A DNA stretch of 64,000 nt, taken from assembly GCF_016107525.1 (NCBI RefSeq), contig NZ_JABASR010000016.1, forward strand, positions 1 through 64,000. The letters run 5' to 3'. The stretch's first letter is position 1. Each line of letters opens with the position of its first letter. Position numbers and translations under genes: made by a program. Origin of the DNA: Psychrobacter aquimaris (GTDB taxonomy: Bacteria > Pseudomonadota > Gammaproteobacteria > Pseudomonadales > Moraxellaceae). A model generated the notes under the pieces. The model saw nothing but the letters and a program-made list of their open reading frames with translations, searched no databases and was not told the DNA's origin. This document shows positions 42,340-57,419 of this stretch, one piece after another.

Positions 42340-42380
42340 GGGCGTGTCCTCATTTCGAAAATGGAGATGAGGACATGCCC
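42340..42380. repeat. 41-bp short form of a TA-flanked inverted-repeat element
   Basis: GGGCGTGTCCTCAT and ATGAGGACATGCCC (one mismatch) face each other across 13 bases and are flanked by TA on both sides. The same ends bound the 170-base element in the urease operon. Standing 22 bases beyond the LysR stop, the hairpin may serve as its transcription end, although no T-run follows. Confidence 0.65.
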
Positions 42381-44291: not shown

Positions 44292-44364
44292 GTATTAATA
44301 ATAGTTAGGAATGGTTCGTTCACTCGGCCTACCAGGCTGCTACTTTATCTTTCTGGAGAAATAT

Positions 44365-45729
44365 ATGTCTTTATTGCCAACGCTTATCACTGCTACTCCT
44401 ATCAATACAAACTATCGTATCGACTCAAAATTGACATCACGTTTGTCTCTACTAGCAGTAGCTGTTGTCGGCAGCTTAAGTCTTATAGGTTGTCAAAAAC
44501 CTGCGGAAACTAGTGCAGAAACCAATTCTACCGCCACAAAAACGGAAACCTCTGAGACGACTGCTACCCCAGCGGCAGACGGTGACACCATCAAAGTAGG
44601 TATCTTGCACTCTTTATCTGGAACGATGGCCATCTCTGAGACGTCCTTAAAAGATACGGCGCTCATGACCATTGATGAAATTAACGCCAATGGCGGCGTG
44701 TTAGGTAAGCAGCTAGAGCCAATCGTCGTAGATCCCGCCTCTGATTGGCCGTTATTCGCTGAAAAAGCGCGTCAATTGCTAACCCAAGATAAAGTCGATG
44801 TGATATTTGGTGGTTGGACATCTGTGTCACGTAAGTCCGTGCTGCCTGTCGTTGAAGAACTAAATGGTTTAATGTTCTACCCTGTGCAGTACGAAGGTCA
44901 AGAGCAATCAGAAAACATTTTCTACACTGGTGCTGCACCTAACCAACAAGCCATTCCTGCCGTTGAATATTTAATGAGTCCAGAGGGCGGTAGTGCAGAA
45001 CGCTTTGTCTTACTTGGGACAGACTATGTCTATCCTCGAACTACTAACCAGATACTGCGTGCTTTCTTAAAATCTAAAGGGGTCGCTGAAACAGACATCA
45101 TGGAAGAATATACACCTTTCGGTTTTAGCAACTATCAGACCATCGTTGGCAACATTAAAAGCTTCTCGACGGGTAAGAAAACGGCGGTTATCTCTACCAT
45201 TAATGGGGACTCAAACGTACCCTTCTATCGTGAGCTTGCCAACCAAGGCATCAAAGCCTCTGATATTCCAGTCATGGCATTCTCAGTAGGAGAAGAAGAG
45301 CTTCGCGGTATCGATACCAGCTTATTGCAAGGGCATTTAGCGTCATGGAACTACTTTATGTCAGTTAAAAATCCTGTCAACAGCGACTTCACCAAAAAGT
45401 ATAAAAAATACGCGCTGGATCATAAGCTACCCAATGCTGACAAGGTCGTGACGAACGATCCTATGGAAGCCACATACGTGGGTATCAATATGTGGAAACA
45501 AGCAGTCGAAAAAGCTGGTACTACTAATGTCGATAAAGTGCGTATTAGTATGGGAGGTCAGACTTTTGACGCGCCATCAGGGTATACATTGAAAATGGAT
45601 GAAGAAAACCATCACTTATGGAAGCCTGTCATGATCGGTCAAATTCGTACCGATGGGCAGTTCGATGTGATCAGCAAAACGCCAAAAGCCATTCGGGCTG
45701 AGCCATGGAGTCAGTACATCCCTAAATAA
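44365..45729 (+). CDS. urtA: urea ABC transporter substrate-binding protein
   Basis: This is the periplasmic urea-binding component of the Urt transporter. The start at 44365 has GGAG eight bases upstream; the earlier ATG at 44311 lacks one. A long N-terminal segment leads to a hydrophobic stretch and lipobox (SLIGCQKPAE near 50), then a Ser/Thr-rich linker. The type I periplasmic-binding (Leu/Ile/Val-like) core begins at IKVGILHSLSGTMAIS and includes GGWTSVSRKSVLPVVEE. About 454 residues. It heads urtABCDE directly before the urease genes. Confidence 0.93.
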   Translation: MSLLPTLITATPINTNYRIDSKLTSRLSLLAVAVVGSLSLIGCQKPAETSAETNSTATKTETSETTATPAADGDTIKVGILHSLSGTMAISETSLKDTALMTIDEINANGGVLGKQLEPIVVDPASDWPLFAEKARQLLTQDKVDVIFGGWTSVSRKSVLPVVEELNGLMFYPVQYEGQEQSENIFYTGAAPNQQAIPAVEYLMSPEGGSAERFVLLGTDYVYPRTTNQILRAFLKSKGVAETDIMEEYTPFGFSNYQTIVGNIKSFSTGKKTAVISTINGDSNVPFYRELANQGIKASDIPVMAFSVGEEELRGIDTSLLQGHLASWNYFMSVKNPVNSDFTKKYKKYALDHKLPNADKVVTNDPMEATYVGINMWKQAVEKAGTTNVDKVRISMGGQTFDAPSGYTLKMDEENHHLWKPVMIGQIRTDGQFDVISKTPKAIRAEPWSQYIPK

Positions 45730-45854
45730 GTTTATGGTCACTTAAACTCTAGTCCCTTAGTGGTATCAATACCAGCATCCCTTTAGCTTCTCTACTGATA
45801 AAAACAATGTTCAGTAGAGGTTAGAGGCGTGTTGACTGTAAAAAAGGAGCCATC

Positions 45855-47606
45855 ATGTCACGTTATTATTCCTATTCTAAAAGTGACGCGCAAGCCAATT
45901 ACTCTTATAAGACTTTTATCATCGCCCTACTATCTTTAGCACTTTTCATCGCTATCGCATCACCTGCCTACGCTGAAGATACAATATCTTCCAACACTGT
46001 GGCAGCGACATCTAATGCTGCAAGTAATGAGACCTTACTTGCTCAAAACGAGAAGTCTTTAACCACGCCAGCTCATCTTACGATAAATAAAGGGGATGCT
46101 ATCGAACAGTTCGTTGCTGCAGACTTCACTAAGCGCCAAACCATGCTCAATCAGTGGCCCGGGTCAGTTGAGAGTTTAGATACTTTGGTTGAGCTGATAA
46201 AAAATGATGAGTTATACCAAGGCAATGGCGGACAAACTTACCTACTTAACAGCGAAGATGAGTTATTTACTTACCCTGCTAAGCAGCTGACCACAGAGTG
46301 GCCCAGCGACTTGGCACAAGTAACTTTGACCAATGCACTACGCTCAGCCTTAGTATTTGGACAAGCTAAGGTTAAGCTTGCGTCAAACGATCCTACGCAA
46401 CGTATGCAGGCAGTTGCTATCTTAGCGGACAATATCGAACAGCTAGATCCAGCACTTATAAGCGCTGCTGCCACTAATGAGGAAGACGTCGACGTCAAAA
46501 CGGCGTTAAATACCTTGCAAGCGAGGATTGATTTTAGAGATGGCGACGTCGCCAAACAAATTGCCGCGCTTACCGTGCTTGCCAATAGCGATAGCCCACA
46601 AGTCTTAGTGGATGTTAAAAAGGCATTGGCGGCAGACGATATCGATCCTGTACTCAAATCTGCGTTATTAGACGCTGAAGATAGTATTGAGCAGCGCATT
46701 ACCATCAGTACTTGGATCGGTCATCTTTTCACCGGTCTTAGCACTGCGAGTGTCTTACTTCTCGCCGCTTTAGGGCTTGCCATTACCTTTGGGCTGCTTG
46801 GTGTCATCAATATGGCTCACGGCGAGCTGATTATGATTGGCGCTTACTCTACTTATGTAGTGCAAAATCTGTTTCAAGCTTATTTTCCCAGTATGACAGG
46901 GTGGTATCTTGTTGCCGCTATACCTGTTGCTTTTTTAGTTAGTGCCATTATTGGCATGGTTATCGAACGGATCGTTATTCGCCCCCTTTACGGTCGTGAG
47001 CTTGAAACCTTACTAGCAACCTTCGGTGTCAGTCTGATTCTTATGCAGTTGGTTCGGATGATATTTGGCGCGCAAAATGTCGAAGTCAGCAATGTCGACT
47101 GGTTGAGCGGGGCCTATCAAGTGTCCTCAAGCCTTGTACTCCCCTTCAACCGTATCGCTATTATCGGCTTTACTATCATCATTCTTATGCTATTGGTGTA
47201 CTTACTTAACAAGACTCGCTTCGGGTTGTTTGTACGCGCCGTGACTCAAAATCGGCAAATGGCCCGTGCGGTTGGTATTTCATCTGCCCGTATCGATATG
47301 TTGGCTTTTGGACTTGGCTCAGGTCTCGCTGGTCTCGCTGGTTGTGCTTTAGCGCAAGTGGGCAACGTCGGACCTGACTTAGGCCAGACTTATATTATTG
47401 ATGCGTTCTTAGTCGTCGTGGTTGGCGGTGTTGGGCAAGTATGGGGCGCGGTATTGGCATCCTTAGGTCTTGGTATCAGTGGCACTGTGCTTGAGATTGG
47501 CATTGGTGCTGTGATGGCTAAGATTGTATTACTGGTTCTTGTGATTTTGTTTATTCAGAAACGTCCACAAGGTTTATTCGCCCTCAAAGGCCGTTTTGTA
47601 GACTAA
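45855..47606 (+). CDS. urtB: urea ABC transporter permease UrtB
   Basis: This is a membrane permease of the branched-chain-type ABC family. Its 583 residues have a signal-like start (about 25-45), a long extracytoplasmic helical region (about 60-280) normal for UrtB, and then eight or so membrane helices with LGLAITFGLLGVINMAHGELIMIGAY and the EAA-like FVRAVTQNRQMARAVGI loop. AAGGAG precedes the ATG. It pairs with UrtC. Confidence 0.92.
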   Translation: MSRYYSYSKSDAQANYSYKTFIIALLSLALFIAIASPAYAEDTISSNTVAATSNAASNETLLAQNEKSLTTPAHLTINKGDAIEQFVAADFTKRQTMLNQWPGSVESLDTLVELIKNDELYQGNGGQTYLLNSEDELFTYPAKQLTTEWPSDLAQVTLTNALRSALVFGQAKVKLASNDPTQRMQAVAILADNIEQLDPALISAAATNEEDVDVKTALNTLQARIDFRDGDVAKQIAALTVLANSDSPQVLVDVKKALAADDIDPVLKSALLDAEDSIEQRITISTWIGHLFTGLSTASVLLLAALGLAITFGLLGVINMAHGELIMIGAYSTYVVQNLFQAYFPSMTGWYLVAAIPVAFLVSAIIGMVIERIVIRPLYGRELETLLATFGVSLILMQLVRMIFGAQNVEVSNVDWLSGAYQVSSSLVLPFNRIAIIGFTIIILMLLVYLLNKTRFGLFVRAVTQNRQMARAVGISSARIDMLAFGLGSGLAGLAGCALAQVGNVGPDLGQTYIIDAFLVVVVGGVGQVWGAVLASLGLGISGTVLEIGIGAVMAKIVLLVLVILFIQKRPQGLFALKGRFVD

Positions 47607-47616
47607 GGAGAACCTC

Positions 47617-48687
47617 ATGCGTTTCGCTCAATTATTATCTGATTCCCCACGTAATTCCATTTTGATTGGTCTGTGTTTTTTGGTGCTGCTGATATTGCCT
47701 TGGCTCCATCTACTACCTGAAACCTCTAGTTTGCACCTGTCTGCTTACTGGATAACTTTGATTGGTAAAATAATGGCACTTGCCATGGTAGCACTGGCTT
47801 TAGACTTGGTCTGGGGCTATGCCGGTATCTTAAGCTTAGGTCATGGTCTTTATTTTGCGCTAGGAGGTTATGCCTTTGGTATGTACTTGACGCGAGAAAC
47901 TGCTGGCACGGGCTTGCCAGACTTTATGCGTTTCTTAAGTTGGACCGAATTGCCATGGTATTGGGCAGGCACTCAACATTTCTGGTGGGCCATGGCTCTA
48001 GTGGTACTAGTTCCAGGTCTGGTCGCTTTTATATTTGGTTTCTTTGCCTTTCGCTCAAAAATCAAAGGGGTTTATTTTTCGATTATTACTCAGGCCATGA
48101 CCTACGCAGCAGCCTTATTATTCTTCCGTAACGAAACAGGCTTTGGTGGTAACAATGGCTTCACAGGTTTTACGACGCTATTAGGTTATGACATCACTGC
48201 CTCTTCAACGAGGGCTGTGCTGTGCTTTACGACCGCTTTGGCGCTGCTACTGTCATATCTTGGGCTACGCTATCTTATGAGCCAGCCTTATGGGCGTGTG
48301 CTCGGTGCCATCCGTGATAGTGAAAATCGCTTGCAATATCTAGGCTATCGCACGCTTTGGTACAAGCTTTCAGCTTGGGTATTGTCTGCAATAATAGCTG
48401 GTATCGCTGGTGCGCTATATGTACCGCAAGTTGGCATCATTAATCCAGGCGAGATGAACCCCGTCAACTCTATCGAGATGGCAGTATGGGTGGCTGCTGG
48501 AGGCAGAGGTTCATTAATCGGTGCCATTGTAGGCGCTGGTACAATTAATGTGATTAAAACGTATTTTACCGTCGCCTATCCGGAGTTTTGGTTGCTTATT
48601 CTGGGCGGATTATTTGTGGTGGTTACTTTATTTTTACCTAACGGCATCATTGGTGTACTTGATCGTCTTAAGAAGGAAAAAGAATAA
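47617..48687 (+). CDS. urtC: urea ABC transporter permease UrtC
   Basis: This second permease has 356 residues with about nine hydrophobic segments. The ALALDLVWGYAGILSLGHG motif and the EAA loop GRVLGAIRDSENRLQYLGY are typical of LivM/UrtC. It starts ten bases after urtB with AAGGAG upstream, and its stop overlaps the urtD ATG (TAATG), so the three are tightly coupled. Confidence 0.92.
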   Translation: MRFAQLLSDSPRNSILIGLCFLVLLILPWLHLLPETSSLHLSAYWITLIGKIMALAMVALALDLVWGYAGILSLGHGLYFALGGYAFGMYLTRETAGTGLPDFMRFLSWTELPWYWAGTQHFWWAMALVVLVPGLVAFIFGFFAFRSKIKGVYFSIITQAMTYAAALLFFRNETGFGGNNGFTGFTTLLGYDITASSTRAVLCFTTALALLLSYLGLRYLMSQPYGRVLGAIRDSENRLQYLGYRTLWYKLSAWVLSAIIAGIAGALYVPQVGIINPGEMNPVNSIEMAVWVAAGGRGSLIGAIVGAGTINVIKTYFTVAYPEFWLLILGGLFVVVTLFLPNGIIGVLDRLKKEKE

Positions 48688-49652
48688 TGTCAATAATATC
48701 TAATAATACTACTTTCCAAAAGACTGCTAACGATGGACTTATTAAAAATGTAAATAATCCTAGTATTAATAAGCCAATGGAAAATCTTGAAAATGCAAAC
48801 AACATAACGATTGCAGAAACCACGCCTACCCAACCAGTCACTACTTTGGCTGAAGATTATGGAGATAGTGGCGGCTTCGCTCAACCTGTTTCTAAATCAG
48901 GTCCAGATATGAGACATGGGATTGCGCTTTATTTGGAAGACGTTAGTGTGTGGTTTGACTCGTTTCGGGCACTCAATGATTTATCGTTATATATTGAGGC
49001 GGGCGAGCTACGCTGCATCATCGGTCCTAATGGCGCAGGTAAGACGACGTTAATGGATGTTATCACTGGTAAAACGCGGCCGACAAAAGGTAGCGCATTT
49101 TTTGGTCAAGTACATAATTTAGCAAAACTATCTACCGAAGAAATAGCCGAAGCAGGCATTGGTCGTAAGTTTCAAAAACCTACCGTATTTGAGAAATTTA
49201 CCGTGCTCGACAACTTAATGCTGGCGGCGCCAAAAGACAAACGGGTGTCAAAAAGCTGGTTTACCAAAATTGATGCTGAAATCAAAGATACGCTTGACTC
49301 AACATTAGCTCAAATACGCTTAAAAGATATGATCAACAAGCCAGCTGGACTGTTATCTCATGGTCAAAAACAGTGGTTAGAAATTGGGATGTTACTGATG
49401 CAGAGACCAAAACTTATTTTACTTGACGAGCCAGTAGCAGGCATGACAGATGCCGAAACTGAACATACCGCTGAGTTATGTCTGCGCCTTAAAAAGAATC
49501 ACACCTTAATCGTGGTTGAACATGACATGACTTTCATTGACGCCATAAGTGAAAAAGTAACGGTCTTAGCAAATGGTGCTATTTTGGCTGAAGGGACGTT
49601 AGCTGACGTACAGAACAATGAAGCCGTTATTGAAACTTACTTGGGTCGATAG
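48687..49652 (+). CDS. urtD: urea ABC transporter ATP-binding protein UrtD
   Basis: This cytoplasmic ATPase carries Walker A IGPNGAGKTTL at about 112-122, the signature LLSHGQKQWLEIGMLL, Walker B KLILLDEPVAG and the switch His in VVEHDMTF. It is 321 residues, about 70 longer than usual UrtD; the extra N-terminus is Asn/Thr-rich and disordered-looking. The AAGGA before 48687 and the TAATG junction with urtC support the long start, although an internal ATG (48909, MRHGIALYLED) would give a normal-length protein. Confidence 0.9.
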   Translation: MSIISNNTTFQKTANDGLIKNVNNPSINKPMENLENANNITIAETTPTQPVTTLAEDYGDSGGFAQPVSKSGPDMRHGIALYLEDVSVWFDSFRALNDLSLYIEAGELRCIIGPNGAGKTTLMDVITGKTRPTKGSAFFGQVHNLAKLSTEEIAEAGIGRKFQKPTVFEKFTVLDNLMLAAPKDKRVSKSWFTKIDAEIKDTLDSTLAQIRLKDMINKPAGLLSHGQKQWLEIGMLLMQRPKLILLDEPVAGMTDAETEHTAELCLRLKKNHTLIVVEHDMTFIDAISEKVTVLANGAILAEGTLADVQNNEAVIETYLGR

Positions 49653-49698
49653 TCGATAGTAGTGCTTAGAAATAGACCTAAAAAATAAGGGTAGTTAT

Positions 49699-50397
49699 AT
49701 GTTAGAAATTAATGCTATAAATCAATATTACGGCGGCAGTCACATCTTACGTGATGTCACCCTAGCCGCACCAGTAGGAGAATGTAGCGTCGTACTGGGT
49801 CGTAATGGCGTCGGTAAAACCACCTTGCTTAAATGCTTGATGGGCATCCTACCAATAAGATCCGGTGAAATTTTATTAGACGGTAAGGATATTAGTAAGA
49901 TGACGCCTGAGCAGCGTGTGCGCGCAGGACTGGCTTATGTGCCGCAAGGACGTGATATCTTTTCCACTTTGACCGTTGAAGAAAACATCCTCATTGGAAT
50001 GGCAAAATTCTCTCAACGTAAAGCGAGTAAAGTACCTAAACACTTATATGATGTATTTCCAGTGCTGGATGAAATGAAACATCGCCGCGGTGGTGATCTA
50101 TCAGGCGGTCAGCAGCAGCAACTCGCTATTGCTCGTGCACTTGCTTCAGAGCCTCGCGTGCTAGTACTTGATGAGCCTACTGAAGGTATTCAACCGTCAA
50201 TCATTAAAGACATCGGTAGAGTCATTCGGAGTCTTGCTAATAAAGGCGATATGGCAATCGTTTTAGTCGAGCAGTTTTATGAGTTTGCTGAAGAGCTTGC
50301 TGATAACTATACCGTGCTTTCTAGAGGACAAGTGGTTGCCCAAGGGGCTGGATGTGACATGGCAGAAAACAATATTCAAGAATTGGTGGCAATCTAG
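49699..50397 (+). CDS. urtE: urea ABC transporter ATP-binding protein UrtE
   Basis: This second ATPase has 232 residues: Walker A LGRNGVGKTTLL near 34, signature DLSGGQQQQLAIARAL near 135, Walker B VLVLDEPTEGIQP and switch LVEQFYEF. Length and motifs fit LivF/UrtE proteins. It ends the urt block, with 128 bases before ureD, so the urea importer may be co-expressed with urease. Confidence 0.93.
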   Translation: MLEINAINQYYGGSHILRDVTLAAPVGECSVVLGRNGVGKTTLLKCLMGILPIRSGEILLDGKDISKMTPEQRVRAGLAYVPQGRDIFSTLTVEENILIGMAKFSQRKASKVPKHLYDVFPVLDEMKHRRGGDLSGGQQQQLAIARALASEPRVLVLDEPTEGIQPSIIKDIGRVIRSLANKGDMAIVLVEQFYEFAEELADNYTVLSRGQVVAQGAGCDMAENNIQELVAI

Positions 50398-50525: not shown

Positions 50526-51542
50526 TTGACTTGGCAATCCTCACTACAGCTTCATTTCGACTGCGCCTCTAATACTGCAAAAACTCGACTGTATCATCGC
50601 GCCCATACTGGTGCATTAATGGTGCAGCGTGCGCTTTATCCTGAGCCTGATAGTCAAGCAGCGATTTGCCATATTTATGTGTTGTATCCTCCTGCTGGCA
50701 TTGCCGATGATGACCGCTTAACATTGGAATTTAACCTAAAATCTAATAGCCATGCGGTGATTACTACCCCTGGAGCTGGCAAATGGTATGGGCAACGGCA
50801 GTCATTACGATTCTCTAAACCCAACGATTTATCAAAACCTACCGAGGGCACTCAAGCGACAACTAGCAACAACTCCGACCATCCTCTCGACAATAACTCT
50901 GGCTCACATATTATCGACAATACTTTCAACAATGCCGTCAGCGCAGAACAATCTATCGACGCCCGCCTCGATGATCACGCTGTTCTTGAATGGCTACCTC
51001 AAGAAAGCATTTATTACGATTATTCCGACTCTAATGCCAATAATCGCTTTTATTTAGCTAAGACGGCAAGTTTGTTGACTTGGGATATTGCGGTGTTTGG
51101 ACGTCAAGCGCATCAAGAGACTTTTGCTAATGGTCATTATGCCAACCGCTTGGAGATATGGCGCGATTGCAATTTATTAGTCAGTGAATGCACCTCTCAG
51201 CAAGCAAATACCCGCTGGTTCACCTCACCATTAGGACTGAATAATCAACATGTTCATGGCTCTTTTTGGGCAATACCTAGCACAGAGGTCATTGCATTAG
51301 AACTACAGAATAATCCGCTCAAGCTTGGTCAGTATTTAGATGCCACTATTACCGAGATACGCAGTCTCATTGATACACAGTCATTACCTATTTATTGTAC
51401 CCACAATTTTCAAGGTATCAATTGCCGTTATCTAGGGGCAGATGTGCGTGCCTGCTTTGAAGCTTTTTACCAAGTCCGCGAGCTTATAAGGTCTACATGG
51501 TATGCGCTTGAGCCTCATCGACCAAGGATTTGGGATACCTAA
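50526..51542 (+). CDS. ureD: urease accessory protein UreD
   Basis: This scaffold protein binds apo-urease and helps deliver nickel with UreF and UreG. The 338 residues carry the UreD features LFTYPPAGIADDDRLTLE-like YPPAGIADDDRLTLEF near 55 and TTPGAGKWYG near 80, and a later WDIAVFGRQAHQE. The start is a TTG at 50526 with AAGGA nine bases upstream. It has an Asn/Ser-rich insert (about 100-145) not typical of the family. It comes first in the urease operon, as in most Gammaproteobacteria. Confidence 0.9.
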   Translation: MTWQSSLQLHFDCASNTAKTRLYHRAHTGALMVQRALYPEPDSQAAICHIYVLYPPAGIADDDRLTLEFNLKSNSHAVITTPGAGKWYGQRQSLRFSKPNDLSKPTEGTQATTSNNSDHPLDNNSGSHIIDNTFNNAVSAEQSIDARLDDHAVLEWLPQESIYYDYSDSNANNRFYLAKTASLLTWDIAVFGRQAHQETFANGHYANRLEIWRDCNLLVSECTSQQANTRWFTSPLGLNNQHVHGSFWAIPSTEVIALELQNNPLKLGQYLDATITEIRSLIDTQSLPIYCTHNFQGINCRYLGADVRACFEAFYQVRELIRSTWYALEPHRPRIWDT

Positions 51543-51678: not shown

Positions 51679-51981
51679 ATGCAATTAAATCCCACAGAAA
51701 AAGACAAGCTCTTGCTATTTACGGCGGGCATGGTAGCGGAACGTCGCAAAAATCGTGGCGTCAAGCTTAATTATCCTGAGTCTATCGCTTACATCAGCAT
51801 GTTACTGATGGAAGGCGCGCGTGATGGCAAAACCGTAGCGCAACTAATGAGCGAGGGAGCCACCTATCTCTCTGCCGATGAAGTCATGGAAGGTATTGCA
51901 GAGATGATAGGCGATGTACAAGTTGAAGCGACTTTTCCTGATGGCACTAAGCTTGTCACGGTGCATAATCCCATCGTATAG
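51679..51981 (+). CDS. ureA: urease gamma subunit
   Basis: This 100-residue gamma subunit shows the canonical [19 protein letters not shown] opening, the [11 protein letters not shown] motif and the C-terminal [26 protein letters not shown] lies before the ATG. It is separated from ureBC by 330 bases that include a mobile-like element, so gamma is a separate chain here whereas beta and alpha are fused. Confidence 0.96.
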
Positions 51982-52061: not shown

Positions 52062-52235
52062 TAGGGCGTGTCCTCAATTCAATCGATTACTTTCTAAATG
52101 GGCTAAAAATGGCTAAATTTTGCCAAACATCGTCAAATAGCTTATCAATATCTCGATATTATTTGCGCTACTTTCCTTGTTTGACGGCAATTTATCTCAT
52201 TTTTATCACCATTTTTAAAATGAGGACACGCCCTA
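52062..52235. repeat. TA-flanked MITE-like element between ureA and ureBC
   Basis: GGGCGTGTCCTCA at 52064-52076 and its perfect complement at 52221-52233 bound about 170 bases of AT-rich non-coding DNA, with TA on both sides, as a two-base target duplication would give. Related ends occur at 42340-42380 and 44034-44073. The small open frame that crosses it is not considered a gene. Confidence 0.75.
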
Positions 52236-52311: not shown

Positions 52312-54444
52312 ATGACGATAAAAGCAGGCGAATATAATATTAAAGCAGGCGATATGGCTTTGAATGCTGGTCGATACATTCAAACCATAACGGTAATAAA
52401 TACAGGTGACCGCCCTATTCAAATCGGCTCTCACTATCACTTCTTTGAAGTAAACGCGGCACTCAGCTTTGATCGAGATTTAACAATTGGATACCGACTA
52501 AACATTCTATCGGGTACTGCTGTACGCTTTGAACCAGGACAAGCGCGCGAAGTTGAGCTGGTTGCCATCGCTGGTAAACAACACATCTATGGTTTTACGG
52601 GAAAAGTTATGGGACCAGCTGTTGTCAAAGCGACCAATGGCACTTCCCAAAAACGCATTGACAGACGTATCTATGCCGAGCATTTTGGCCCTACCACAGG
52701 GGATAAAGTACGCTTGGCAGATACGGATTTATGGCTTGAGGTTGAATATGATTTGACCAATCATAGTGACCAACGTACTGATACTGATAGCATCAGCATT
52801 GGTGAAGAGGTTAAATTTGGTGGTGGCAAGGTTATCCGCGATGGCATGGGTCAATCACAGCTACTGGGTGACCAAGTTGCCGATACTATTATTACCAATG
52901 CTTTAATTGTGGACTACAGCGGTATCTATAAGGCAGATGTCGCTATCAAAGATGGTCGTATCAGTGGCATCGGTAAAGCTGGCAACCCTGATATTCAGCC
53001 TAACGTGACGTTACCTATTGGTGCGGCTACCGAAATTATCGCAGGAGAAGGCAAAATCTTAACTGCTGGCGGTATCGATAGTCATATTCACTTCATTGCA
53101 CCGCAGCAATGTGAAACGGCATTGATGTCTGGTGTAACCACGATGTTAGGCGGTGGCACGGGGCCTGCTGAAGGTACTCTTGCCACTACTTGTACTCCTG
53201 GTGCTTATCATATTCACAGCATGCTAAAAGCCACTGATGCTATTCCGATGAATATCGGATTCTTGGGTAAAGGCAATGTTAGTTTACCAGCGCCAATTGT
53301 TGAGCAAATCGAAGCGGGTGCTATCGGGCTTAAGCTTCATGAAGACTGGGGCTCTACGCCCAAAGCTATTGATAATTGCCTTAGCGTGGCTGAAGAATAT
53401 GATGTGCAAGTTGCTATTCATACTGATACGTTAAATGAGAGCGGTTATTTAGATAGCACTCTAGGTGCCTTTAAAGACCGCTGTATTCACACCTTCCATA
53501 CCGAAGGCGCTGGTGGTGGTCATGCACCAGATATCTTAAAAGCTATTGCCGAAACCAACGTCTTACCCTCATCAACCAACCCAACGCGCCCTTTCACTAT
53601 TAATACCATTGACGAGCATCTCGACATGCTCATGGTTTGTCACCATCTAAGCCCAGCCATTGCTGAGGATGTTGCTTTTGCAGAAAGCCGTATTCGTAAA
53701 GAGACCATTGCCGCTGAAGATATTTTACAAGATATGGGCGCTATCTCCATGATGAGTAGTGATTCGCAGGCGATGGGACGCGTGGGAGAAGTCATTATTC
53801 GTACGTGGCAAACGGCTGATAAGATGAAAGCACAACGTGGTCACTTGGCTCCTGATCAATCTGCTAAAACTGAGCAATCCTTAGCGCATATCATGTTAAG
53901 CCCTACTGACTCTGATAGCGGCAATGACAATTTTCGTATCAAACGCTACCTCGCAAAATACACCATCAATCCTGCCATCACGCATGGCATTAGTGATGAA
54001 GTGGGGTCAGTTGAAATAGGGAAATGGGCAGATTTAATTTTATGGTCGCCGGCATTTTTTGGGGTAAAGCCCGACCTTATCATTAAAGGTGGCTTGATTG
54101 CGGCAGCGCCCATGGGCGACCTCAATGCTTCCATCGCTACCCCGCAGCCTGTGCATTATCGCAGCATGTTTGGCAGCTTCCCCAAAACAGTGGCACAGAC
54201 TTGCATGACTTTTATGTCAAGCGCTGCGATAGACAAAGGCGTTGATAAACACTTGGAGTTAGAAAAAGTCATTAAAGCAGTACATAACATCCGCCAAGTA
54301 CGCAAACAAGACATGAAATTTAACAGCTACTGCCCTAATATGGAGGTCAATCCTGAGACCTATGAAGTATATGCCGATGGTGAGCTGTTAACCTGTGAGC
54401 CTGCCGAACATCTACCGATGGCACAGCGCTACTTTTTATTCTAG
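52312..54444 (+). CDS. ureBC: fused urease beta-alpha subunit
   Basis: This 710-residue chain joins UreB (residues 1 to about 110; [27 protein letters not shown]) and UreC (from about 114; [20 protein letters not shown]). The frame is open across the junction with almost no linker. All urease active-site residues are visible: HIHFIAP (about 257-263, two Ni ligands), the carbamylated Lys in GLKLHEDWG near 341, [21 protein letters not shown], catalytic His in VCHHL near 444, and the Asp/Arg-bearing [12 protein letters not shown]. Nothing else looks broken, so it should be active with UreA. AAGGAT precedes the ATG. Confidence 0.93.
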
Positions 54445-54518: not shown

Positions 54519-55142
54519 ATGAACATTTATACGCAACGTCTTGACCAATCAACCCTAAGCGCTGAACAACAAGCGATTATTGATAGGCAAAAACAGGCAG
54601 AAAACTTTTTATATTTAGATTTTGACACCCGTCAGCGTAGCCGTTTTAAAGCAGAAACACAGCACCAAGAAACCATTGGTGTTGATTTGCCACGTACGGA
54701 AACTATTAAGAATGGCAGTGTACTGGCAGACCATCAAGGCAACTTGATACAGATTATGGCCGCTAATCAAGCCTTAATCGAAGTGACTGCTGATAATGGT
54801 TTTGACCTTATGAAAGGCGCTTACCATTTAGGTAATCGTCATGTGCCATTAATGATTACACCTAAGGCCCTATACTTTGAGCCTGACCATGTTTTAGAAG
54901 CGATGTTACATCAACTTGGCCTACATACCCAAGCCGTACAAGCGCCATTTGAGCCAGAGACTGGTGCCTATAAAGGTGAACACGGCGGACATTCTCACTC
55001 TCATAGCCACAATCGTGATCACAGTCACAGTCACAGTCACAGTCACAGTCACAGTCATGAACATAGCGATAACCATCAGCATAATCACTCTGACGCTCAC
55101 AGCCATAGCCGTAATCATAATCATGAGCATACTCATGACTAA
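54519..55142 (+). CDS. ureE: urease accessory protein UreE with a His-rich tail
   Basis: This nickel metallochaperone has 207 residues with an N-terminal UreE domain (LDFDTRQRSRFK, VDLPRTETIKNGSVL), a metal-site GNRHVPLMIT near 108, and a C-terminal tail rich in His, Ser and Asp from about 153 onward. The tail is partly encoded by six perfect copies of a 6-base repeat. Such tails store or buffer nickel. Its last codons overlap the ureF start by eight bases. Confidence 0.93.
   Translation: MNIYTQRLDQSTLSAEQQAIIDRQKQAENFLYLDFDTRQRSRFKAETQHQETIGVDLPRTETIKNGSVLADHQGNLIQIMAANQALIEVTADNGFDLMKGAYHLGNRHVPLMITPKALYFEPDHVLEAMLHQLGLHTQAVQAPFEPETGAYKGEHGGHSHSHSHNRDHSHSHSHSHSHSHEHSDNHQHNHSDAHSHSRNHNHEHTHD
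55021..55056 (+). repeat. six perfect 6-bp tandem repeats in ureE
   Basis: ACAGTC is repeated six times without error, encoding alternating His and Ser in the UreE tail. Copy-number change by slippage would be in frame and would lengthen or shorten the nickel-binding tail without killing the gene. Confidence 0.95.
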
Positions 55143-55932
55143 TCACGCCACACACTCACAGCAGACTACCCGTACCGCACAAGGTATAAATGATCTGCAT
55201 AATACAGAGGTAACTGGACGTCTGTTAATGCTGGCTTCAAGTAACCTACCTATTGGCAGTTATACCTACTCGCAAGGCATAGAACCCGCTATTGAGTCAG
55301 GGCTCATTCATAATGAAAGCAGTAGTTTAGCGTTTATGAGTGACTATCTGGAGCTGGCATTATGTCGGTATGAGCTACCGCTACTGGCGCTGATGATAGA
55401 GGCACTTATGGTTGATGACGTTGCACTTGCTGACGCTTTAGGTGCAGATTACCATGCCAGCCGTGAAAGCAAAGAGTTTGTCTATGAGTCAAGCCAATTG
55501 GCTCTTTCTTTATCAGCTTGGCTTGGTGATGTCCTTAAGCTCGACGTGCCTGACAGCTTACTTGCCCATGGATTTTTGCCACTCTTTGCCCATATCAGCT
55601 CGCACTGGCAGCTTAAGCCCGTACAAGCCATGACCACCTACGCTTTTGGTCAAATAGAAAATATGGTGTTGGCTGCGGTCAAGACCGTACCGCTTGGGCA
55701 AATGGCAGGACAGCGCATTATTTGGCAGCTACAACAGTTATTAAGTCAGCAAATACAGGCATTGGTTGCCAACGTCAAGCAAAGATTTTTGCAAGTTCAA
55801 GATATGCCTTTAGAGGCTAACGTAAAGCTGAATCTACTTTATCAACAGCTACATATGTCCGCTAACCTACCAAATTTAGCGATACTGTCTTGTCAGCACG
55901 AAAGGCAATACAGCCGTTTATTTCGCTCTTAA
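55135..55932 (+). CDS. ureF: urease accessory protein UreF
   Basis: This helical protein works with UreD and gates UreG activation of urease. Residues from [27 protein letters not shown] onward match UreF, including the [11 protein letters not shown] and [11 protein letters not shown] segments. The start is set at the ATG at 55135, which overlaps ureE's end; the frame is open further upstream only because it crosses the ureE repeat region. The ribosome site is weak, so coupling with ureE translation is likely. Confidence 0.88.
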
Positions 55933-55970
55933 TCGTTGATAAACACAACTCTCATCAAGGAACTTTATTT

Positions 55971-56624
55971 ATGGCACTGACACCCAAAGTCGAAAACAAA
56001 AATTTAGACACGACGCTCTCGCCACTACGCTTAGGGATTGGCGGTCCTGTTGGCTCAGGAAAAACAGCATTAACGCTAAGACTATGTCAACGCCTGCGGG
56101 ATGACGTCAATATGGCAGTGGTAACCAATGATATTTATACCAAAGAAGACTCTGAATTTTTAACCCGCCATGAGGCCATGCCAGCTGAGCGCATTCGCGG
56201 TGTTGAAACCGGTGGCTGCCCGCATACGGCCATTCGTGAAGATGCCTCAATTAACCTATCTGCCATCGCCGAATTACAAGACCAATTTGCAGGTCTCGAG
56301 CTTATTATTATCGAATCTGGTGGTGACAATTTGGCAGCAACTTTTAGCCCTGAACTATCCGACTTAACTTTGTATGTCATTGATGTTTCAGCAGGCGATA
56401 AAATCCCTCGTAAAGGTGGGCCTGGCATCATGAAATCTGACTTGCTCATTATCAATAAAACCGATCTTGCCCCTCTCGTAGGTGCGTCACTTGAGGTTAT
56501 GGCACGTGATGCCAAAAAAATGCGCGGCGATAAGCCTGTGGTCTTTAGTAATATGAAAACAGGCGAAGGGCTTGATGACATTGTTGCCTTTATATTGGAT
56601 AAAGGCATGATAAATGTAGCGTAG
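55971..56624 (+). CDS. ureG: urease accessory GTPase UreG
   Basis: This SIMIBI-class GTPase hydrolyses GTP to load nickel into urease. The P-loop [11 protein letters not shown] is at about 24-34, followed by [17 protein letters not shown], the nickel-binding [16 protein letters not shown] with the CPH motif near 79, [13 protein letters not shown] and the NKTD guanine motif. Length 217 is normal. The ATG at 55971 has AAGGA upstream; upstream extension lies in the end of ureF. Confidence 0.95.
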
Positions 56625-56741: not shown

Positions 56742-57419
56742 ATGACAATAAAAATATCACAAACTATGACATATAGAGCTTTCAACAACAAAGCGGCAAT
56801 GACCAGTGGCTTAGCATTGTTATCATTGCTACCAACACTCGCATTGGCTCACCCTGGGCATGGCTTGATGGCAGAAGAAAGCACATTTAGCACTTCAGTA
56901 TTGTCTGGTATCATGCATCCTTTAACTGGGCTTGATCACCTCATGCTGGCATTGGGTATGGGCCTGCTATTTACTCAGATGCACAGTTTTAAGAAAGGCT
57001 TTATAGCACTGTTAATTGGTCTAGTAACAGGATTTGTACTCAGTTTAAGTGTGAGCTTGAACAGCGTATTTATTGAATTCGGTATCGTACTGTCTATCGT
57101 ATTACTAACCATGGCACTTATGAGCCGCTACTTTAACAATTCACTGAATCAAAGCAATGAAGCCTCAGTCAAAACATGGCATAACTTAGCCATCGTTGGC
57201 TTTGGTGCACTCGCTATGTTCCATGGTGCGGCGCACGCCATTGAAGTTCCTGCAAACAGTAATACTGCTGGATTTTTTATAGGTATGATTGTTGCCATGC
57301 TAGGTCTATATACTGTCGGCAAAGGCGTTGCTACCTATCTAAACACTCACTTGCAAGACAGTTTGATTGTTCAACGTATCATGGCGGTTGTCGGTCTATG
57401 CGCGGTACTGTTGAGTTAA
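56742..57419 (+). CDS. HupE/UreJ-family membrane protein, nickel-related
   Basis: This 225-residue membrane protein has a signal-like N-terminus, the motif HPGHGL near 38, HPLTGLDHLMLALGMGLL near 60, a MFHGAAHAIEVP segment, and about six hydrophobic helices. HupE/UreJ proteins are thought to import nickel or cobalt. AAGGATG lies before the ATG. It follows ureG by about 117 bases in the same direction and probably supplies nickel to urease. Confidence 0.85.
   Translation: MTIKISQTMTYRAFNNKAAMTSGLALLSLLPTLALAHPGHGLMAEESTFSTSVLSGIMHPLTGLDHLMLALGMGLLFTQMHSFKKGFIALLIGLVTGFVLSLSVSLNSVFIEFGIVLSIVLLTMALMSRYFNNSLNQSNEASVKTWHNLAIVGFGALAMFHGAAHAIEVPANSNTAGFFIGMIVAMLGLYTVGKGVATYLNTHLQDSLIVQRIMAVVGLCAVLLS

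Follow-up and report, generated by a model that had tools for sequence, protein, structure and literature searches.

The stretch of DNA analysed here, called the window, comprises positions 1 to 64,000 of contig NZ_JABASR010000016.1 of Psychrobacter aquimaris (assembly GCF_016107525.1), and it contains a gene in which the beta and alpha subunits of urease are joined in one open reading frame (ORF). We are highly confident that this gene encodes part of a genuine nickel urease made from two gene products, in which a joining that arose once and was kept in the Moraxellaceae has turned ureB and ureC into a single gene, and for which assembly, maturation and urea supply can be proposed. The evidence is direct for the frame, the domains, the residues, the distribution, the phylogeny, the selection and the single gene copy.

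The joined gene is a single uninterrupted frame of 710 codons with an ATG start, which covers exactly positions 52312-54444 of the forward strand. Pfam recognises three domains in this one frame: Urease_beta at residues 6-101 (E 1.6e-40), Urease_alpha at residues 115-243 (6e-47), which is the N-terminal domain of alpha, and Amidohydro_1 at residues 249-596 (7.6e-75), which is the amidohydrolase barrel. The NCBIfam cut-offs were passed for gamma (TIGR00193), urease subunit beta (PRK13203) and urease subunit alpha (TIGR01792). The active-site positions were located by alignments to the Klebsiella chains, and all those of K. aerogenes are filled (H258, H260, K341, H343, D345, H370, H396, C443, H444, R460 and D484). 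These 11 residues include the nickel ligands, among them the lysine that is carbamylated, and the cysteine and histidine of the flap; none of the 11 varies across 40 aligned joined ureases. Hence the locus encodes what a nickel urease (Enzyme Commission number EC 3.5.1.5) consists of, namely gamma, beta and alpha domains with nickel ligands and flap residues, together with ureDEFG. A genome search for a second urease that would make the joined gene redundant found none; the joined protein was the sole match, and the genome holds no further ureB or ureC. Two other joined types were ruled out. The gamma subunit is encoded by its own ORF of 100 amino acids, which is incompatible with the gamma-beta joined urease of Helicobacter and also with the single-chain urease of plants and fungi; the plant chain also includes gamma. 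The original prediction, made from the letters of the window alone, had proposed a beta-alpha fusion in one ORF of about 77 kDa, with the active-site residues kept and gamma separate. The results agree with it in all these points, with a calculated mass of 76.71 kDa.

Most urease-carrying genomes of Psychrobacter have the joined form, which recurs far more often than chance would allow and is not an oddity of a single genome. A match was found in 79 of 105 genomes of the genus; counted by eye, 58 of these 79 have the joined form (56 of them without an internal stop) and 22 have separate ureB and ureC. Genome G012 is one of the 22 and carries an interrupted joined copy as well as a separate-type urease operon (L116, L117), as if one were replacing the other. 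We examined 44 of the 58 joined and 9 of the 22 separate genomes at the sequence level. The family sample of 348 genomes contained 166 with a match, and the joined form occurs in at least three genomes outside the genus, two from one other genus group (G298, G299) and one from another (G329). The fusion that the original prediction had suggested looking for in related genomes is therefore present there. All 120 database proteins among the matches listed cover the whole query and are 708-761 amino acids long. The named records among those listed are mostly "urease subunit alpha" of Psychrobacter, with one UniProt "Multifunctional fusion protein". For annotation this means that "urease subunit alpha" records can contain both subunits, and a missing ureB call in Psychrobacter therefore does not imply that the subunit is absent.

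Outside the family the beta-alpha architecture is found seldom but repeatedly. Among the matches listed for the class sample (369 genomes, of which 100 had any match), no further uninterrupted beta-alpha frame was recognised. A candidate from this sample, G585, has separate ureB and ureC; in G555 the alpha frame reaches back over the end of beta, which is matched in another frame, and this case was not counted as joined. Of the 398 genomes of the phylum sample 168 had any match, the present one included, and the matches listed held one other uninterrupted beta-alpha frame, in G835; about 23 of the 167 other matches, counted by eye, are weak (E > 1e-7). The fusion had been called uncommon, and this stands for the phylum sample, in which G835 is the only one among the matches listed for the 167 others, but not for the genus. 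It had been allowed that the finding would be less novel if the joined form were common in the genus; this is so, and the form also occurs in other Moraxellaceae and recurs in other lineages. Three of 80 named loci of a sequence collection are joined, from Neptuniibacter marinus (L038), an Oceanobacter metagenome-assembled genome (MAG; L040) and an Arenicella MAG (L047). The 80 loci are the best 80 of 590 matched stretches, and the set is therefore biased to in-frame neighbours.

The beta part of G835, used as a query against proteins limited in length to several hundred residues, gave 1378 matches. Among the 120 listed, 109 have beta and alpha Pfam domains (counted by eye), two of them also gamma; many of the listed matches are fragments, and about half form one group close to G835. 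Further beta-alpha names among the matches listed are Thalassobaculum, Defluviicoccus vanus, Elstera cyanobacteriorum and Sinomonas cyclohexanicum. At least six listed proteins, picked by eye (P0174, P0187, P0210, P0222, P0238 and P0240), have a garbled beta end and are probably frame errors of the records rather than real fusions. A search pattern for the beta end flagged 48 of 106 proteins as unusual; most belong to one regular group near G835, and the pattern was too narrow. Database fusions of the beta-alpha kind need checking case by case. Among the titles and abstract openings searched in open-licence PubMed Central, and in passages of some of the papers, no description of a beta-alpha joined bacterial urease as such was found; Marsh et al. 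2013 (PMC4009401) mention a beta-alpha fusion as present in STRING. Beta-alpha joining is a known architecture and not a new kind of enzyme.

The phylogenetic relationship of 146 alpha chains was analyzed with a quick maximum-likelihood tree, using the Shimodaira-Hasegawa-like approximate likelihood ratio test (SH-aLRT) for support and a midpoint root. The duplicate rows L116, L125 and L130 and row L149 (10 bases) were dropped beforehand. All 47 joined rows from Moraxellaceae, 44 of the genus and 3 others, form one clade with an SH-aLRT support of 99. The alpha chain of the window falls within this clade and shares its long loop at residues 513-539. The sister group (support 98) consists of nine rows with separate subunits, from Acinetobacter and two further genus groups. 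In three Acinetobacter-type loci (L127, L148 and L059) the frames of ureB and ureC lie 420-450 bp apart, in contrast to the tight arrangement elsewhere. The nine examined separate-type ureases of Psychrobacter stand elsewhere on the tree, five of them next to Halomonas and Marinobacter and the other four as a separate group, and these nine probably came by transfer. The joined rows L038/L040, L047 and L111 lie outside the Moraxellaceae clade.

Across the 146 rows the joined and separate states need three changes, and the starred branches force three. If the starting state was separate, these amount to three origins: in the Moraxellaceae, in the Neptuniibacter, Oceanobacter and Arenicella rows (one or more) and in G835. 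The reverse path, fission of an ancestral joined gene, is not favoured, since three changes suffice from a separate start; the same three can also be read as one gain and two losses on this quick tree rooted only at its midpoint. The joining would date from a single event in an ancestor shared by Psychrobacter and part of the other Moraxellaceae, and would have been retained since. Among 77 separate collection loci, ureB and ureC are in the same frame with a single stop between them in 37 and in the same frame with a longer gap in 12; for the separate genome loci (n = 18) the numbers are 3 and 3. The two genes are often in one frame with one stop between them, and loss of the stop is therefore a short path to joining, although the way the collection set was obtained favours such cases. 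The simplest mutational path would have started from two genes that already shared a frame and removed the stop and the UreC start between them.

The long loop in alpha follows the same clade. The stretch between L512 and N540 has 27 residues in all 44 joined proteins of the genus examined and in G329, and 34 in G298 and G299, so that each of the 47 joined Moraxellaceae proteins examined has a loop of 27 or 34 residues. The loop has 9 residues in all nine separate-type ureases of the genus that were examined; of the 86 separate ureases from outside it, 77 have 8-9 (range 7-18), and the four joined ureases outside the family (L038/L040, L047, L111) have 8-13. None of the nine separate rows of Acinetobacter and its kin has the long form. 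A second loop, from D147 to E166 in the N-terminal domain of alpha, is between 6 and 62 residues long in the joined ureases of Psychrobacter (L141, L139, L143). A structure model was built from a 40-sequence alignment, which has P0210 with its garbled beta end among its rows. In one superposition the model fits the beta-alpha part of jack bean urease, and loop 513-539 is predicted with high confidence to contain short helices. One could imagine that the joining and an ordered 27-residue loop evolved together and gave the clade its own route of assembly and maturation, in which a tethered beta could neither leave nor swing freely and nickel loading would have to cope; we consider this rather unlikely.

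The linker between the domain ends has about 13 residues (102-114) in the window copy. Counted from the MG that ends beta up to the alpha core, there are 18 residues in this copy and 18-53 in the remaining joined Moraxellaceae that were examined, so that the original description of a junction with almost no linker is right for this copy but not for the clade. A variable linker, polar-rich in many relatives, is what one might expect if the chain were cut after translation, and Shine-Dalgarno-like stretches before in-frame internal starts in some relatives would allow alpha to be made separately too; either way an ordinary three-chain urease would result. The window copy speaks against both. Its linker is short and is modelled as ordered, and no start codon of UreC is left. 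Near the junction the sole in-frame start is a Met that belongs to the beta domain; its Shine-Dalgarno score of -4.3 is weaker than that of the gene start (-5.9). The case for an internal start for alpha in this copy would be weak, and we hold a cut or an internal start to be very unlikely.

That the urease is decaying or silenced is even less probable. In favour of this reading, the copies of two relatives are interrupted, and in the window the 330 bp between ureA and the joined gene contain a 170-bp element, similar to a miniature inverted-repeat transposable element (MITE), which has a strong predicted RNA hairpin (z -8.0) and could lower expression. It has 13-base terminal repeats (52064-52076 and 52221-52233) and occurs about 40 times in the genome (42 places match, two of them weakly). 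The element is absent from relative L002, whose joined protein is 97% identical and the closest among the genus genomes. L002 has an empty site with a single TA in place of the TA on both sides of the element in the window, and the insertion is therefore probably recent; it may affect expression. The catalytic residues and the accessory genes are nevertheless complete, and decay is also hard to reconcile with the ratios of nonsynonymous to synonymous substitution (dN/dS). These were calculated against 16 joined relatives, with unsaturated comparisons only, and were 0.026-0.058 for alpha (8 comparisons) and 0.07-0.10 for beta (6 comparisons); the linker gave 0.35-1.06 (8 comparisons of 12-13 codons, very few sites). 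The ratios indicate that both domains are under strong purifying selection where measurable. Together with the full set of accessory and urea-transport genes, they support the earlier impression of a functional-looking gene rather than a broken operon.

A sequencing or assembly artefact, in which a lost base or a misread stop masks separate ureB and ureC, can be dismissed: garbled beta ends suggest that such errors exist in other records, but none was found at this locus, the beta end has the usual form, the UreC start codon is lost, the linker has diverged in frame, and the indel that had been raised as an alternative does not fit a joined frame that is found in 58 of the 79 matching genomes of the genus, in three genomes of two other genus groups and in every listed database protein.

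Several observations count against a joined urease that works as one chain and has been kept since a single origin. No match was found in 26 of the 105 genomes of the genus and 22 have separate-type ureases; the joined form is therefore not indispensable. The two interrupted copies, in G012 and G075, have internal stops. The joined rows of the genus form a group of their own inside the clade with a support of only 36. Some divergent relatives (e.g. L139, L135 and L142) have stronger Shine-Dalgarno-like scores before in-frame internal starts, and an alpha-only product may be made in these. The confidence of the model falls below 50 at residues 430-460, and as a prediction for one chain it would fit beta docked on its own alpha as well as on a neighbour's. 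Finally, one report (PMC12953519) describes a Psychrobacter isolate as urease-positive and calls this unusual among the species compared.

With these points weighed, the joined protein most likely works like any other urease, except that beta is tethered to alpha. Its two parts would fold as a normal beta domain and a normal alpha chain connected by a short linker, and the joined chain would assemble with the separate gamma, probably as (gamma, beta-alpha)3, with each tethered beta presumably sitting on its own alpha. Nickel would be loaded by UreD, UreE, UreF and UreG of the same cluster, and urea would be imported by UrtABCDE and then hydrolysed. Residues 1-19 of UreB are reported to form a hinge required for activation in K. 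aerogenes (PMC6332059), and the shape of urease is reported to change on binding of accessory proteins (PMC3792862). In the joined chain the N-terminal end of beta would be free and its other end tied, so maturation would have to proceed while beta is tethered. Beta was seen to leave first from K. aerogenes urease by Marsh et al. 2013 (PMC4009401), who judge that fusing beta to its neighbour would not conserve this order.

The joined gene lies in a cluster with the order urtABCDE, ureD, ureA, joined ureB-ureC, ureE, ureF, ureG and a ureJ/hupE-like gene (Table 1). Elsewhere in the window, at 42340-42380, an inverted pair of the 13-base terminal repeats of the MITE-like element, 15 bases apart, is perhaps a remnant of such an element.

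Table 1. Features of the urease region, in positions of the window.
Feature	Position	Strand	Basis
urtABCDE, urea ATP-binding cassette (ABC) transporter genes	44311..50397	+	TIGR03407, 03409, 03408, 03411, TIGR03410
ureD, accessory gene	50526..51542	+	PF01774
ureA, urease gamma, separate, 100 aa, upstream of the joined gene	51679..51981	+	PF00547, TIGR00193
MITE-like element between ureA and the joined gene, outside the enzyme	52064..52233	+	inverted repeats
Joined urease beta-alpha gene (ureB-ureC fusion), 710 aa, 76.7 kDa	52312..54444	+	one open frame; PF00699 + PF00449 + PF01979
Beta domain, residues 1-101	52312..52614	+	PF00699 at 6-101; NCBIfam urease subunit beta above cut-off
Linker, residues 102-114, no UreC start codon left; sequence and length vary in relatives	52615..52653	+	
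Alpha chain, residues 115-710, with nickel-site H258, H260, K341, H370, H396, D484	52654..54441	+	PF00449/PF01979; TIGR01792 above cut-off
27-residue loop in alpha, residues 513-539	53848..53928	+	loop-length comparison
ureE, accessory gene, His-rich tail	54519..55142	+	PF05194, PF02814
ureF, accessory gene, 5' end provisional	55189..55932	+	PF01730
ureG, accessory gene, start codon assumed	55968..56624	+	TIGR00101 above cut-off
ureJ/hupE-like permease gene	56742..57419	+	PF04955

Separate-chain relatives exist within the same family, and even within the genus, so this natural beta-alpha chain makes it possible to compare cleanly how assembly and nickel loading proceed when beta is free and when it is tethered. 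Among known ureases, the enzyme of Klebsiella aerogenes (PDB 1krb, 2kau and other entries) has the same domains and active-site residues and a separate gamma, and its alpha is 64% identical; its beta and alpha are separate chains and its alpha is without the long loop 513-539, whereas here the two are joined and the loop is present. Helicobacter urease (PDB 1e9y, 3qga) likewise consists of two gene products, but there gamma and beta are joined and alpha is free, whereas here beta and alpha are joined and gamma is free. Jack bean and pigeon pea urease (PDB 3la4, 4g7e) is a single gamma-beta-alpha chain of 840 residues, in contrast to the separate gamma gene found here. The same order of beta and then alpha in one ORF, of about 675-726 amino acids, is shared with Thalassobaculum, Defluviicoccus, Elstera, Sinomonas, Neptuniibacter, Oceanobacter, Arenicella and G835. 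The joined ureases of Psychrobacter in the public databases are the same gene, with no substantive difference.
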